Assembly (NCBI RefSeq): GCF_014764305.1
Contig: NZ_CP061703.1
Location: 1,518,800-1,582,799 of the forward strand
Origin: Mesoflavibacter profundi
Lineage (GTDB): Bacteria; Bacteroidota; Bacteroidia; Flavobacteriales; Flavobacteriaceae
Direction of reading: 5' to 3'
Length of the DNA stretch: 64,000 nt
Shown piece by piece: positions 16,875-20,564 of this stretch. The first letter of the stretch is position 1. Each line of letters opens with the position of its first letter. The notes below the pieces were generated by a model that ran no database searches, was not told the origin of the DNA, and saw nothing but the letters and a program-made list of their open reading frames with translations. The position numbers were made by a program, and so were the translations under genes.

Positions 16875-17306
16875 ATGTCATTTTCAGATTTATTTGATAG
16901 TGGATTTAAAAAGCGAAATGAAGATCATTTTGCTGCAATTGTTAGAGTTGCGATGAGTGATGGTGTTATCACTGATGAAGAAAAGGCGTTTTTAGATAGA
17001 TTAGCACGTAATTTAGATATTAGCGAAGAAGATTATAAGTTAATATTAAAAGACTATAAATCGCATCCTATAAATCCGCCAACTTCTTACGACCAACGTT
17101 TAGAGCGTTTATACGATCTTGCAAGAATGGTTTGGGCAGATCATATAGAAGGTGAAAACCAAAAGGCTATTTTAGAGCGTCTTTGTGTTGGTTTAGGTTT
17201 TAAATCTAGTAACGCAAAGTATGTTACAGATAAAGCTTTAGAGCTTGTCCATGAAGGTGTAGATCTAGACACTTTTACTGATGAAATTAAAACAATGAAT
17301 AGATAA
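16875..17306 (+). CDS. TerB-like protein
   Basis: 143 residues, cytoplasmic, all helical. The sequence VRVAMSDGVITDEEKAFLDRLARNLDIS is the characteristic first half of the TerB/DjlA-N domain with its conserved acidic residues, and AKYVTDKALELV closes the domain. TerB domains bind metal and occur in tellurite-resistance and stress systems; stand-alone copies like this one are common in Bacteroidota, mostly of unknown role. It has its own promoter and faces the GTPase/kinase cluster tail to tail across a shared terminator, so operon linkage to other ter genes is absent. Confidence 0.88.
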   Translation: MSFSDLFDSGFKKRNEDHFAAIVRVAMSDGVITDEEKAFLDRLARNLDISEEDYKLILKDYKSHPINPPTSYDQRLERLYDLARMVWADHIEGENQKAILERLCVGLGFKSSNAKYVTDKALELVHEGVDLDTFTDEIKTMNR

Positions 17307-17324
17307 TTTATTGTTTATCCATAT

Positions 17325-17355
17325 AAAAAAAGCGAGCATTAAGCTCGCTTTTTTT
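17325..17355. terminator. Bidirectional intrinsic terminator
   Basis: Stem AGCGAGC (17331-17337), loop ATTAA, and GCTCGCT (17343-17349), flanked by A and T runs so that the paired region extends to 17325-17355. It ends the TerB-like gene on the plus strand and the histidine-kinase cluster on the minus strand. Confidence 0.92.
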
Positions 17356-18880
17356 ATTTTACATTGTCTTGTATTTGGGTTAGAAGAGTTTCTTCATCAA
17401 ATGGTTTTTTAATAACATCGTTTATACCAGCTTTTTTGTATTTTTTTAAGTCGTCTTTAAATACTCTTGCTGTTAAAGCTATAATTGGTATTTTTTTGTG
17501 TTCTCTTTCTGGTAACTGTCTTATCTTTTTTGCCAATTGATCACCTTGTCCATCTGGTAACTTAATATCCATTAATATTAAGTCTATTTGGTTGTCGTAA
17601 TCTGTAATTTTTGGAATTACATCTTCGGCTTTTGTTGCAATGTCTAAAAAGAAATTTCCTTTAGATGCTAGTATTTTTAGTACAGATAGTTGAGTGATTT
17701 CTGAATCGTCTACCAATAAGATATTGTACTTTTTATCTTTATTAATTGGTGTACTATCTGTTTGTTTACTTTTTTCTAATTTATAGCTTGGATCTATTCT
17801 AAAGTTTAGATTTGTAGAAAATGTAGAGCCTTTTCCAACGGTAGATTCTACAGAAATTTTACTTCCAGATAACTCTACATAATGCTTAGATATAGCTAGA
17901 CCTAATCCAGAACCAGTATAGTTGTGCGAATGGTTTAATTGCTTAAAGCTTTCAAAAATTGCATCTTGATCTTCTTCTGGAATACCAATTCCTGTGTCCG
18001 AAATTTCAAAATGAATATTAGCTTTTCTTGCTCTTGTTTGATTTAAAGATGCGCTAAATGTAATTGTGCCTACTTCTGTAAATTTTATAGCATTACTTAA
18101 TAGATTACTTAACACTTGGCGAAGTTTCATTTTATCACCACCAACTATTTTTGGTAAGTTTTTATTAAAATTAGTTACAAATTCTAAGCCTTTTTGGTGC
18201 GAATTTACTTTGTAAATATGAGCAACTTCTTCTAATAATTCGTGTAGATTAAACGGTTCTAGGATTATTTCGGCTTTGCCAGATTCTATTTTAGAAATGT
18301 CTAATATATCTTCTATAAGCTGCTTTAAATAGTTTGTAGAAGAGTCCATTACCTTTAAGTAATTGGTTTGCTCGTCTGTTAATCCTGTTTTTTTAAGAAT
18401 TTCAGAAAACGTTAAAATTCCTGTTATAGGATCTCTTAATTCGTGATTAAAATTGGCAATAAATGTGTTTTTAAAAGCTTCTTTTTCTAATAAATATTCG
18501 TTTTTAAGCTCTAATATTTGCGAATTAATAACAGACTCGTTTCTTACTTGTGCTGTAGTTTGATAGTTATTATAGTGTAATGTTAAATCTAAAATAACTA
18601 CTAATGGTAATTGTTTACCATCAAATGTTTTTACCACAATATCTGTGATAATTGTATTGTTATTTTGGTCCTGTAAATGAATACAAGAAAATACTAGATC
18701 TTGATCTTTTTCTTTGAAAACAGAAGTTAGACTTTCAAAAAAAGGATGAATTTCAGAGATGTTTTTTTCAATTACATTATCAAAAATAACATTGTCAGTT
18801 TCTTTTATAACACCTTCAAAGTCTACAATTAAATATTGATTTACAGATTGTGCGTATTTTTGCTTATATTCTTTTAACAT
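17354..18880 (-). CDS. Soluble hybrid histidine kinase with C-terminal receiver
   Basis: 508 residues, no membrane segment or signal peptide, so cytoplasmic. Residues about 10-105 look like a PAS-type sensor domain. A coiled linker (115-140) leads to HisKA with phosphoacceptor His146 in NFNHELRDP. The ATPase domain has the N box near Asn263, DTGIGI at 295-300 and GSGLGL at 323-328. The receiver domain (385-505) has the acidic pair D391/D392, phosphoacceptor Asp438 in LILMDIKLP, T470 and the KKP lysine near 492. No output domain follows, so phosphate should pass to another protein. It starts 17 bases after the small GTPase gene, ends at a terminator, and is the last gene of that cluster. The signal is unknown; adjacency to GTPase and Roadblock-like genes suggests intracellular signalling. 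Confidence 0.95.
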   Translation of the reverse strand: MLKEYKQKYAQSVNQYLIVDFEGVIKETDNVIFDNVIEKNISEIHPFFESLTSVFKEKDQDLVFSCIHLQDQNNNTIITDIVVKTFDGKQLPLVVILDLTLHYNNYQTTAQVRNESVINSQILELKNEYLLEKEAFKNTFIANFNHELRDPITGILTFSEILKKTGLTDEQTNYLKVMDSSTNYLKQLIEDILDISKIESGKAEIILEPFNLHELLEEVAHIYKVNSHQKGLEFVTNFNKNLPKIVGGDKMKLRQVLSNLLSNAIKFTEVGTITFSASLNQTRARKANIHFEISDTGIGIPEEDQDAIFESFKQLNHSHNYTGSGLGLAISKHYVELSGSKISVESTVGKGSTFSTNLNFRIDPSYKLEKSKQTDSTPINKDKKYNILLVDDSEITQLSVLKILASKGNFFLDIATKAEDVIPKITDYDNQIDLILMDIKLPDGQGDQLAKKIRQLPEREHKKIPIIALTARVFKDDLKKYKKAGINDVIKKPFDEETLLTQIQDNVK

Positions 18881-18897
18881 TAGGAGAATGTTGAGGT

Positions 18898-19395
18898 TTA
18901 TACTAGACTTTTTGCTAATAGATTAAAAATTTCTTCTACATTTTTTCCAGATTTTGCACTAGTATAAAGATCTACATAAGGCTTAAATATGTCTTTGTTT
19001 TCTTTAATAAAATCGTTAGTTACCAAATCTTTTTTGTTACCAATAACTTTTATTGGAAGTTTTGGGTATCTTTCTTTAATGTAGTTTAGATCAAATTCTA
19101 AATTTTGATATGTTGTTGGTCTAGTTAGATCAAATACATAAATAAAACCGTGTGTTCCTATAAGGTATGACGGTCTTGTATTTGTTATATCGTCATTACC
19201 TTCTAGATCCCAAATTACCAAAGTGATATCTTTATTTGTTTCTGGTAAGATTACATCTTTTTTTAAGATATGTACACCAATGGTTACTTTGTAATCCTCG
19301 GTAAAAGTGTTTTCTACAAAACGTCTAATTAAAGACGATTTTCCTACACCAAAGTGTCCTATTAAAACCACTTTTTTAGATAATTTCATGTTCAA
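18898..19395 (-). CDS. Ras/Rab-like small GTPase
   Basis: 165 residues, a stand-alone G domain with all five G motifs: P-loop GHFGVGKSS (13-21), switch I threonine T38 in TIGV, switch II DLEGND (63-68), NKKD (120-123) and SAK (146-148). The overall sequence resembles eukaryotic Rab proteins (TIGV, SAKSGKNVEEIF). No C-terminal lipidation cysteine is present. Oddities: the position of Ras Gly12 is Phe15 and that of catalytic Ras Gln61 is Asn67, both suggesting weak intrinsic hydrolysis. A second ATG (residue 3) is an equally possible start. The gene overlaps the Roadblock-like gene by 20 bases. Prokaryotic small GTPases are often encoded beside Roadblock proteins (MglA/MglB in Myxococcus), which supports a functional pair. 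The exact subfamily is not determined. Confidence 0.93.
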   Translation of the reverse strand: MNMKLSKKVVLIGHFGVGKSSLIRRFVENTFTEDYKVTIGVHILKKDVILPETNKDITLVIWDLEGNDDITNTRPSYLIGTHGFIYVFDLTRPTTYQNLEFDLNYIKERYPKLPIKVIGNKKDLVTNDFIKENKDIFKPYVDLYTSAKSGKNVEEIFNLLAKSLV

Positions 19396-20194
19396 ATTGG
19401 GCTTTTAATTTTGTAGCTAATGCGCTACTGTTTTCTAAATCTGTTTTATTTATTACGTTTTGGGCAAAGTCTAGTAATTTATCTTCTAATTTGTTTCTAA
19501 ATGTAGCTGTAAAAGCGCCAGATATTACTACTGCAATGTAATAATTTGAAAAATTTTGAAGGTGAATATGGTAGTTTTCATATTCTATATATTCTAGACT
19601 TTGTGTTTCTGCTTGAAATGCATCTTCTGCAAAACTTTTAATTGCTGTTAACATTCCCGCAACAGTGTCTTGGTCTATGTTTTGCGTTTTAGAATATTCT
19701 GATGCTACAATACCAGATCCTTGTTCTATAACCATTATTTGTTCTATAGTAGGTTTAAAATGGTCTTGAAGGATTAAATCTGCTTCAGAAACGCCACTTC
19801 TTTTTGCTCTAAATTTTCGTTTTAAAGCCTCAAAAGAAAAGGTATTATTCATTTTGTTGTTTATAGCTTCGGATAAAAGTTGTATTTCTTTTTGCACATA
19901 CTTTTTTATCATTTTACCCATTATTGGGTATAAGGCTTCTACAACTGCGTCTTGCGAATTTTTAATTTCGGTTTTTAAAGTTTCTGTAATTGTAGGACCT
20001 AAAGTTTCTGGTATTTCTTGAACAAACTCTTTAAGTCTGTCTTCAATTATAGGATCTACTCTTTTAGATAAATTAGGTTGTTGGTTTATTATCTCTTCCA
20101 ACGACTTAAGTTTTTGTTCTATGGATAAAGCATACTCATGCTCATCTTTAAGCAAGATGTCCTTAAGAATTTTTAATTTATCGTCTTGAGTCAT
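19376..20194 (-). CDS. Roadblock/longin-like protein with helical N-terminus
   Basis: 272 residues, no signal peptide. Residues 1-80 are helical with coiled-coil character. Residues 81-142 contain VEALYPIMGKMIKKYV and FRAKRSGVSEADLIL, blocks I recognise from a family of bacterial proteins that often carry an OmpA domain at the C-terminus. Residues about 148-245 (IEQIMVIEQGSGIVASE ... VAGMLTAIKSFAEDAF ... YYIAVVISGAF) have the strand-helix pattern of a Roadblock/longin-type domain. Here the OmpA domain is absent and the protein ends soon after. Such domains are regulators of small GTPases in MglB and eukaryotic complexes. The gene overlaps the GTPase gene, so translational coupling is likely. 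Fold assignment is by pattern recognition, not by search. Confidence 0.82.
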   Translation of the reverse strand: MTQDDKLKILKDILLKDEHEYALSIEQKLKSLEEIINQQPNLSKRVDPIIEDRLKEFVQEIPETLGPTITETLKTEIKNSQDAVVEALYPIMGKMIKKYVQKEIQLLSEAINNKMNNTFSFEALKRKFRAKRSGVSEADLILQDHFKPTIEQIMVIEQGSGIVASEYSKTQNIDQDTVAGMLTAIKSFAEDAFQAETQSLEYIEYENYHIHLQNFSNYYIAVVISGAFTATFRNKLEDKLLDFAQNVINKTDLENSSALATKLKAQFEHEII

Positions 20195-20207
20195 GGATTG
20201 TCAAAAT

Positions 20208-20564
20208 TTATTGACTAATCTTTTCTCCTAGTTTTGTGAAAAGTTCACCCAGAAGTCTTCTGTCTAATTTTTTGTCGTCAAGATCTTCGGTTTTTTCTTG
20301 AAGAGACGCTTCTAATTCTGTAATTCTAATATTAATATCTGTACTAAGATTATCAATATTTTGAAGTAATTCTGTTTTTACTTCATCAATTAAGTTTTCT
20401 AGAGCTTCTTTTTTGTTAAGAATATCTTGTTTAAGTGTTTCAAACTCGCTATCGTAAGCTTGCATATTTTCTCCAAAAATAAGCTGCTTAATAGCATCTA
20501 TTTTAGAGCTTGAATCTACTGTATTTAATTTTACATCTTGTTGATCAATCTTCTCTTTTCCCAT
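20208..20564 (-). CDS. Small coiled-coil protein of the GTPase cluster
   Basis: 118 residues, soluble, strongly helical. Heptad-like spacing of Leu and Ile runs from about residue 40 to 95 (TLKQDILNKKEALENLIDEV, ITELEASL), followed by a short conserved-looking tail DDKKLDRRLLGELFTKLG. It contains no cysteine, no membrane segment and no catalytic motif. It is the first gene of the cluster after fbp, with 13 bases to the Roadblock-like gene, so it is co-transcribed with the GTPase module and may be a scaffold or GTPase partner. I do not recognise a named family. Confidence 0.85.
   Translation of the reverse strand: MGKEKIDQQDVKLNTVDSSSKIDAIKQLIFGENMQAYDSEFETLKQDILNKKEALENLIDEVKTELLQNIDNLSTDINIRITELEASLQEKTEDLDDKKLDRRLLGELFTKLGEKISQ

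Follow-up and report, generated by a model that had tools for sequence, protein, structure and literature searches.

Which kind of regulatory system is encoded by four closely packed genes of Mesoflavibacter profundi, in which a small GTPase gene is followed by that of a soluble hybrid histidine kinase? The genes span 17354–20564 on the minus strand of a window of 64,000 nucleotides (the whole stretch analyzed: contig NZ_CP061703.1, positions 1,518,800–1,582,799; coordinates below are those of the window), in a genome of 3.09 Mb on a single contig. They encode a coiled-coil-like protein of 118 amino acids (the coil protein), a 272-residue protein, a Ras-superfamily GTPase and a 508-residue kinase. 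By gene content, the operon matches a Group 1 Rup system in a soluble flavobacterial form, and this arrangement was outlined in 2014 (Wuichet and Sogaard-Andersen, 2014; PMC4316618). Three points are new here. The protein with a conserved unknown domain in the Rup system likely has a cryptic Roadblock/longin-class identity, as judged from a predicted structure. The kinase has a PAS-like N-terminal domain (N-domain), which was found only beside the module in a sample of the order, and sigma-54 activators were among the neighbors of the module elsewhere in the phylum. The features are as follows.

20208–20564, minus strand: coiled-coil-like protein, 118 amino acids (open reading frame; no Pfam family over the cut-off)
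19376–20194, minus strand: soluble protein of 272 amino acids, with N-terminal helices (low-confidence model) and a C-terminal Roadblock/longin-class domain (open reading frame, predicted model)
19379–19756, minus strand: putative Roadblock/longin-class domain, residues 147–272 of the 272-residue protein (predicted model, profile match)
18898–19389, minus strand: Ras-superfamily GTPase, Rup type by neighborhood, 163 amino acids from ATG (Pfam, G motifs); an alternative TTG start at 19395 gives 165 amino acids
17354–18880, minus strand: soluble hybrid histidine kinase, 508 amino acids (open reading frame, Pfam)
18545–18880, minus strand: PAS-like N-domain of the kinase, presumed GTPase-responsive, with invariant Q15, C66, D80 and Q111 (alignment, model)
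18278–18472, minus strand: HisKA domain of the kinase, phospho-acceptor His146 (Pfam, alignment)
17804–18139, minus strand: HATPase_c domain of the kinase (Pfam)
17372–17722, minus strand: receiver domain of the kinase, acceptor Asp438 present (Pfam, alignment)
17323–17357, no strand assigned: terminator-like stem-loop of 15 pairs between the kinase gene and a convergent TerB-like gene (stem search)

An earlier note on this DNA had described four genes on one strand with gaps of 13 and 17 bases that end at a terminator, and this layout was confirmed. The 20-base overlap that it gave for the genes of the 272-residue protein and the GTPase exists only if translation starts at the TTG at 19395. 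The GTPase start is more probably the ATG at 19389, and therefore the overlap would be 14 bases; among the relatives, the same junction had a median gap of −14 with an overlap in 67 of 76 loci, counted from first possible start codons. Pfam assigned the GTPase to Ras (E 1.8e-31) and found HATPase_c (E 4.9e-27), Response_reg (E 5.5e-19) and HisKA (E 5.9e-19) in the kinase, which contained no membrane segment (highest 19-residue hydropathy 1.2). The coil protein and the soluble hybrid kinase of the earlier note were borne out.

The first step is whether the four genes belong together. The scan of named genomes yielded 433 related stretches, and the best 80 were examined; these are the closest relatives and form an uneven sample. 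Further sets comprised 119 genomes of relatives, 246 of the order and 247 of the phylum. The order coil, 272-residue protein, GTPase and kinase was kept in 76 of the 80 loci. One locus counted among them, L140, has a 200-residue copy of the N-domain alone as its fourth gene, followed by a second GTPase and a full kinase. The four exceptions were L079, in which the contig ends after the GTPase, L100 and L101, which contain the coil and 272-residue protein genes only, and L123, in which a frame-broken extra GTPase and N-domain copy precede the intact GTPase and kinase. The 272-residue protein was present in 16 of the 119 relatives, and the four-gene order occurred in 13 of the 15 genomes other than that of the window, two of the 13 having an extra GTPase and N-domain inserted. 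A related GTPase (E 5.3e-31 or better) was detected in 14 of the 119 genomes, all of which encode the 272-residue protein; the remaining GTPase matches were weak (E 9.5e-6 or worse) and lay in frames of 465–486 residues. The nearest named relative found was Mesoflavibacter zeaxanthinifaciens, whose 272-residue protein is 93% identical. The four-gene order is not a matter of chance. The earlier note had set two outcomes beforehand that would speak against its reading, a gene order confined to this genome and a 272-residue protein devoid of the predicted fold; the order recurs as described, and the structure prediction presented below contains the fold.

The remaining two of the 15 genomes differ. 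In L031, a broken remnant of the 272-residue protein gene alone lies between the usual neighbors fbp and the TerB-like gene, and it looks as if the whole module had been lost in place. L032 (4935–6747) encodes a coil protein of 329 amino acids and a 25%-identical homolog of the 272-residue protein, and neither a GTPase nor a kinase match was found beside these two genes; homologs of similar divergence exist in further genomes of that family.

The kinase might still be an ordinary two-component enzyme that merely neighbors an unrelated GTPase operon. Its core is indeed ordinary, and the coil and 272-residue protein genes can occur without a kinase. Against this explanation, a kinase (the N-domain alone in L140) follows the GTPase directly in 76 of 80 loci with a median gap of 4 bases. 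The N-domain was found in 6 of the 246 genomes of the order, with up to 16 candidates scored per genome, and all six had the gene of the 272-residue protein close by. It is also duplicated with the GTPase in the absence of any kinase part: in L021 (3402–5006), L023 (3334–4938) and L140, an additional GTPase gene precedes a copy of the N-domain on its own. These copies are good evidence that the N-domain and the GTPase form a unit. A fortuitous neighborhood, already disfavored, is thus highly improbable.

The second step is to identify the system. The Group 1 Rup neighborhood, as set out in the part of the 2014 paper devoted to it, has four parts (PMC4316618). The first is a GTPase without the glutamine (Gln) of G3, and the second is a coiled-coil protein predicted to be cytoplasmic. 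The third contains a conserved unknown domain, often together with a membrane helix and OmpA; the fourth is the output protein, which has an invariant N-terminal Gln and is typically a c-di-GMP (cyclic diguanylate) enzyme or a histidine kinase. In the same account, Bacteroidetes were among the hosts, an analogy to the conservon was proposed, and no Rup had been experimentally characterized as of 2014. The operon has four conserved genes, a cytoplasmic coil and a conserved-domain protein; the G3 Gln is absent (Asn), and the N-domain of its output contains two invariant Gln residues, Q15 and Q111, either of which may be the published one. It differs from the published form in that the flavobacterial conserved-domain protein has no helix or OmpA and the flavobacterial kinase carries a receiver. 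The earlier note had not recognized the combination as described, and that claim fails, since the same four-part neighborhood appears in PMC4316618 as Group 1 Rup.

Relatives elsewhere in the phylum have the missing parts. The profile of the 272-residue protein detected nine proteins outside the family in the phylum set, in frames of 598–738 amino acids. Homology between the 272-residue protein and these OmpA-bearing proteins was clear (hhalign 99.9). A hydrophobic segment follows the shared domain in all nine (19-residue means 1.88–2.44), and OmpA matched in all five that were scanned, with L159 just under the cut-off (27.0 against 27.2). In the nine distant loci, a coil-profile match, which may be compositional, always adjoins the gene of the conserved-domain protein, and the GTPase is adjacent in six. 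From sequence similarity, these homologs fit the conserved-unknown-domain protein of Group 1 Rups. A separate arrangement was observed in L209, L210 and L211, where a GTPase, a 307-residue protein and a kinase form a cluster of their own and the coil and OmpA-type genes lie elsewhere; a Guanylate_cyc match below the cut-off was found in one of two scanned copies of the 307-residue protein.

The GTPase contains recognizable G1, G3 (WDLEG), G4 (NKKD) and G5 (SAK) motifs, and Asn occupies the position of the catalytic Gln. Gln was found there in only 14 of 81 aligned GTPases. In sequence searches, it matched Rab-type proteins (Rab1B, E 8.4e-22). The Ras/Rab-like assignment of the earlier note therefore stands at the level of sequence matches; the neighborhood points to the Rup family and not to Rab, an assignment that is based on neighborhood and profile scores. 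An MglA-type assignment was tried and rejected on profile scores and on the lack of Robl_LC7 in the genome. The profile of the operon GTPase reached E 2.9e-4 at best with two putative MglA candidates beside 30 Bacteroidota Roadblock loci, and E 2.6e-31 or better with the OmpA-linked GTPases. Rups were defined within a GTPase clade uncoupled from MglB homologs (PMC4316618).

Does this GTPase then have a partner? No Robl_LC7 Pfam match and no second GTPase matching that of the operon were found in the genome, and the 272-residue protein is thus the only candidate partner found. Sequence-based detection of a longin or Roadblock domain in it failed. Pfam gave nothing significant, phmmer with the 272-residue protein found no longin or Roadblock, Pfam on 53 members at E 0.02 matched 13 families with neither among them, and a profile search of PDB sequences returned four weak unrelated matches, again without longin or Roadblock. 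A looser Pfam pass on the 53 members gave 73 weak families, 25 of which were looked at. A structure model was therefore needed.

The AlphaFold2 model from the 53 sequences had a mean pLDDT (predicted local distance difference test) of 63.9, with 56–84 by ten-residue blocks in the C-terminal domain. The predicted order in residues 147–272 is strand-strand-helix-strand-strand-strand-helix-helix, and it includes the Roadblock/longin core of two strands, a helix, three strands and a helix. The central helix region (residues 180–193) is the most conserved stretch of the domain. Longins are marked by an extra C-terminal helix and Roadblock domains by an N-terminal one, according to the domain description in PMC10933270, and the model shows helices at both ends (137–145 and 250–267). 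Foldseek retrieved sigma and mu chains of AP complexes, COPI subunits, Mon1-Ccz1 and Ragulator/Rag chains; the match at rank 50 was a chain of an MglA-MglB entry, judged to be MglB by its length. In VIA-align 2, longin-fold chains were at the top, with Z up to 13.3 and a root mean square deviation of 2.7 Å over 118 residues, and Rab guanine nucleotide exchange factor (GEF) subunits (Mon1-Ccz1, TRAPP) were also listed with Z of about 10 to 11.

A profile comparison was made independently of the structure. Of 30 Roadblock loci fetched, which are part of a longer Robl_LC7 match list, L175 (a 1054-residue frame) and L163 (no open frame) were excluded; hhalign matched the 272-residue protein to the remaining 28 Bacteroidota proteins with a probability of 81.7 (P 1.1e-5, 78 columns). 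The controls scored 0.2 for the PAS-like domain, 0.1 for the coil and 3.2 for the GTPase, and 100 column shuffles reached at most 2.2. The top structural matches were longins, whereas the profile similarity was to Roadblock.

Several results pull the other way, beginning with the empty Pfam and PDB profile searches above. The fold model is only moderate, with pLDDT below 60 in most of the helical N-terminus, and the best Foldseek E was 9.5e-05. The match to the Roadblock profile is of moderate strength and varies with the subset used (66.3 with the MglB-like subset, 5.2 and 0.1 with two others); it fell to 69.3 once divergent relatives were pooled in. The OmpA-type relatives scored 16.1 against Roadblock with their C-terminal part and 3.9 with their first 360 residues. 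Since the profile match is moderate and subset-dependent, the domain is named here as Roadblock/longin class and not as longin proper. At that level, the predicted structure and the profile match support the partner that the earlier note had proposed, and the C-terminal domain of the 272-residue protein is likely a cryptic Roadblock/longin-class domain. Its cryptic nature may be the reason why a Rup partner has been overlooked.

The part of the 2014 paper on the neighborhood gives no fold for the conserved-domain protein (PMC4316618). Among the matches listed in a search of the open-access literature, there was no later experimental Rup study and no report of a Roadblock/longin partner of a Rup. 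A 2016 review, in its survey of the superfamily, already counted Longin/Roadblock domains as present in bacteria (PMC4917890), and therefore a bacterial member is not new in itself.

The coil protein contained no hydrophobic segment by hydropathy, and its best Pfam match was Apolipoprotein (8.9e-05, far under the cut-off). All 90 coil proteins examined share an N-terminal motif of the form [IVL][RK]x[IL][IL][FM][GS]. The coiled coil was called from the sequence itself and not with dedicated prediction software, and matches to coil profiles can be due to composition. A motif common to the coil and the N-terminus of the 272-residue protein was considered and rejected, because its hhalign value of 0.64 was lower than that of its own reversed control (1.7). 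The motif score was above the 99% level of the shuffles for 3 of the 9 distant proteins, 0 of the 81 flavobacterial proteins and 5 of the 94 kinase control rows.

The N-domain of the kinase was modeled with a pLDDT of 90, in the PAS strand order with a long helix after it, and the 50 PDB matches shown by the structure search were mostly PAS or PAS-like sensor domains. Q15, C66, D80 and Q111 were invariant in all 91 rows reaching them; three 238-residue open reading frames (L088, L093 and L103) were the three rows of the kinase alignment without N-domain letters. The HisKA histidine was kept in 88 of the 91 rows reaching it, one exception being the N-domain-only copy of L140, and the ATPase residues checked were nearly always kept. 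In L026 (2988–4490), the ATP-binding motif seems degraded in the alignment, and this copy is a possible pseudokinase.

The earlier note had suggested a link between phosphorelay and GTPase switching. This link is weakened: the receiver acceptor Asp is intact in the window, but 31 of the 90 full-length kinases examined have another residue in its place. The losses comprised 19 of 77 first copies and all 12 second copies, in which Asn takes its place. A phosphorelay is thus not the essential output, and the receiver was dropped in that role. The second copies are full kinases after the operon in Lacinutrix/Bizionia-type loci (L068–L072, L077, L078 and L081–L085).

Here, we lean towards a Group 1 Rup operon in soluble form in which the state of the GTPase, set by its longin-type partner, gates the kinase; we regard this as reasonably probable. 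The coil and the 272-residue protein would form a platform, and the Roadblock/longin-class domain may bind the GTPase and set its nucleotide state as GEF, GTPase-activating protein (GAP) or both. The GTP-bound GTPase would then engage the PAS-like N-domain and change the activity of the kinase. A Gln of the N-domain could complete the GTPase active site in trans, a role proposed because the GTPase lacks a catalytic Gln of its own. This idea develops a remark of the 2014 authors, in which the N-terminal Gln of the output protein was called noteworthy given the missing G3 Gln (PMC4316618); what is added here is the location of two invariant Gln residues in the alignment. The receiver may tune or relay in some lineages, and others may do without it. 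Where the partner has OmpA, it is presumably anchored to the cell wall; no such anchor exists in the flavobacterial form, and a cytoplasmic stimulus is therefore suggested.

Some observations count against so uniform a picture. The module is patchy, with the 272-residue protein in 10 of 246 genomes of the order, and in L100, L101 and L032 the coil and a 272-residue homolog occur without an adjacent GTPase. Among the distant genomes, the GTPase lies elsewhere in three of nine (L154, L155 and L160), together with a 307-residue protein and a kinase, and, where adjacent, is on the opposite strand in two of six (L156 and L159). Absence of the catalytic Gln is not universal, as 14 of 81 GTPases retain it.

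Alternatively, the longin-class protein could serve to recruit the complex, as a structural scaffold or as an effector, and have no part in regulating the nucleotide cycle. Many adaptor and coat longin subunits do not regulate GTPases, and it is such subunits that head the structural matches; the GTPase-free loci L032, L100 and L101 would suit a scaffold as well. However, Rab GEF subunits were found by the same structural comparison, and the account given in PMC10933270 describes the bacterial Roadblock protein MglB as a GEF/GAP. A pure scaffold seems unlikely to us.

The direction of signaling could also be the reverse, with the kinase sensing through its PAS-like domain and controlling the GTPase as output, as the 2014 authors proposed for the conservon, where a histidine kinase, an MglB-type protein and a GTPase occur without a response regulator and the GTPase was posited as output (PMC4316618). 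The often degenerate flavobacterial receiver leaves no obvious downstream acceptor in those lineages. Ligand sensing is common among PAS domains. However, the protein next to the GTPase varies. It is a hybrid kinase here, a PAS and sigma-54 activator protein that follows the GTPase in L152 and L153, and a kinase beside a receiver/sigma-54 response regulator in L156 and L157 (in L156, the kinase was identified by profile only); c-di-GMP enzymes were described for other Rups (PMC4316618). Outputs are usually the exchangeable end, and the complete invariance of four positions across 91 N-domains suits a protein contact better than a variable sensor. One result tempers this argument: the similarity between the N-termini of the sigma-54 activators and the kinase N-domain is weak and partial (E 0.012 and 0.12). 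The exchangeable output, the invariant residues and the duplication with the GTPase favor the direction from GTPase to kinase, with the GTPase as the switch on the input side and the kinase as an output that can be exchanged; control of the GTPase by the kinase is a doubtful alternative.

Among known systems, the nearest is Group 1 Rup itself, through a GTPase mostly without the G3 Gln, the coil, the conserved-domain protein and a Gln-bearing kinase output. The actinobacterial conservon (CvnA-D) is the better-known analog, also an operon of a histidine kinase, a Roadblock protein and a Ras-like GTPase, as outlined in PMC13343842. Its own features are an MglA-type GTPase, a membrane-spanning kinase and no response regulator, as summarized in the 2014 paper (PMC4316618), whereas the operon here has no Robl_LC7 Pfam match, a kinase without a membrane segment, and a receiver. 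MglA/MglB of Myxococcus xanthus similarly combines a small Ras-like GTPase with a Roadblock/longin-class partner. However, the GTPase here apparently belongs to another family by profile scores, no recognizable MglB homolog accompanies it, and no link to motility is seen. The eukaryotic and Asgard platforms TRAPP, Mon1-Ccz1 and Ragulator resemble it in the predicted partner fold and the Ras-superfamily GTPase; here, in contrast, a single-domain partner without a sequence-level match to longin families is encoded in a bacterial operon whose last gene is that of a histidine kinase.

The surroundings of the operon were often retained: among the 80 loci, homologs of the flanking genes fbp, GNAT, aspartokinase-like and TerB-like were found in 63, 61, 60 and 60, respectively. 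The convergent TerB-like gene (143 amino acids, 16875–17306; Pfam TerB 9.8e-09) abuts the terminator. These genes give no clue to what the pathway regulates.

A bolder proposal can be made tentatively, and in full it is rather improbable: the operon may represent a second bacterial GTPase platform outside MglA, in which a cryptic longin-type regulator is paired with a Rab-like Rup GTPase. The GTPase would switch the histidine kinase by way of a PAS-like domain dedicated to this task, from which the catalytic Gln that the GTPase lacks would come in trans. In that case, the PAS-like domain would act as effector and GAP at once, and one type of switch would serve kinases, sigma-54 activators and c-di-GMP enzymes alike.

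As a small and soluble system with closely packed genes, the flavobacterial form could be rebuilt from four purified proteins, and this would make the coupling of a small GTPase to a two-component system directly testable. If the Roadblock/longin partner holds, Rup systems would join MglA/MglB, the conservons and several eukaryotic GEFs under one rule, namely that the Ras-type switch travels with a Roadblock/longin partner.

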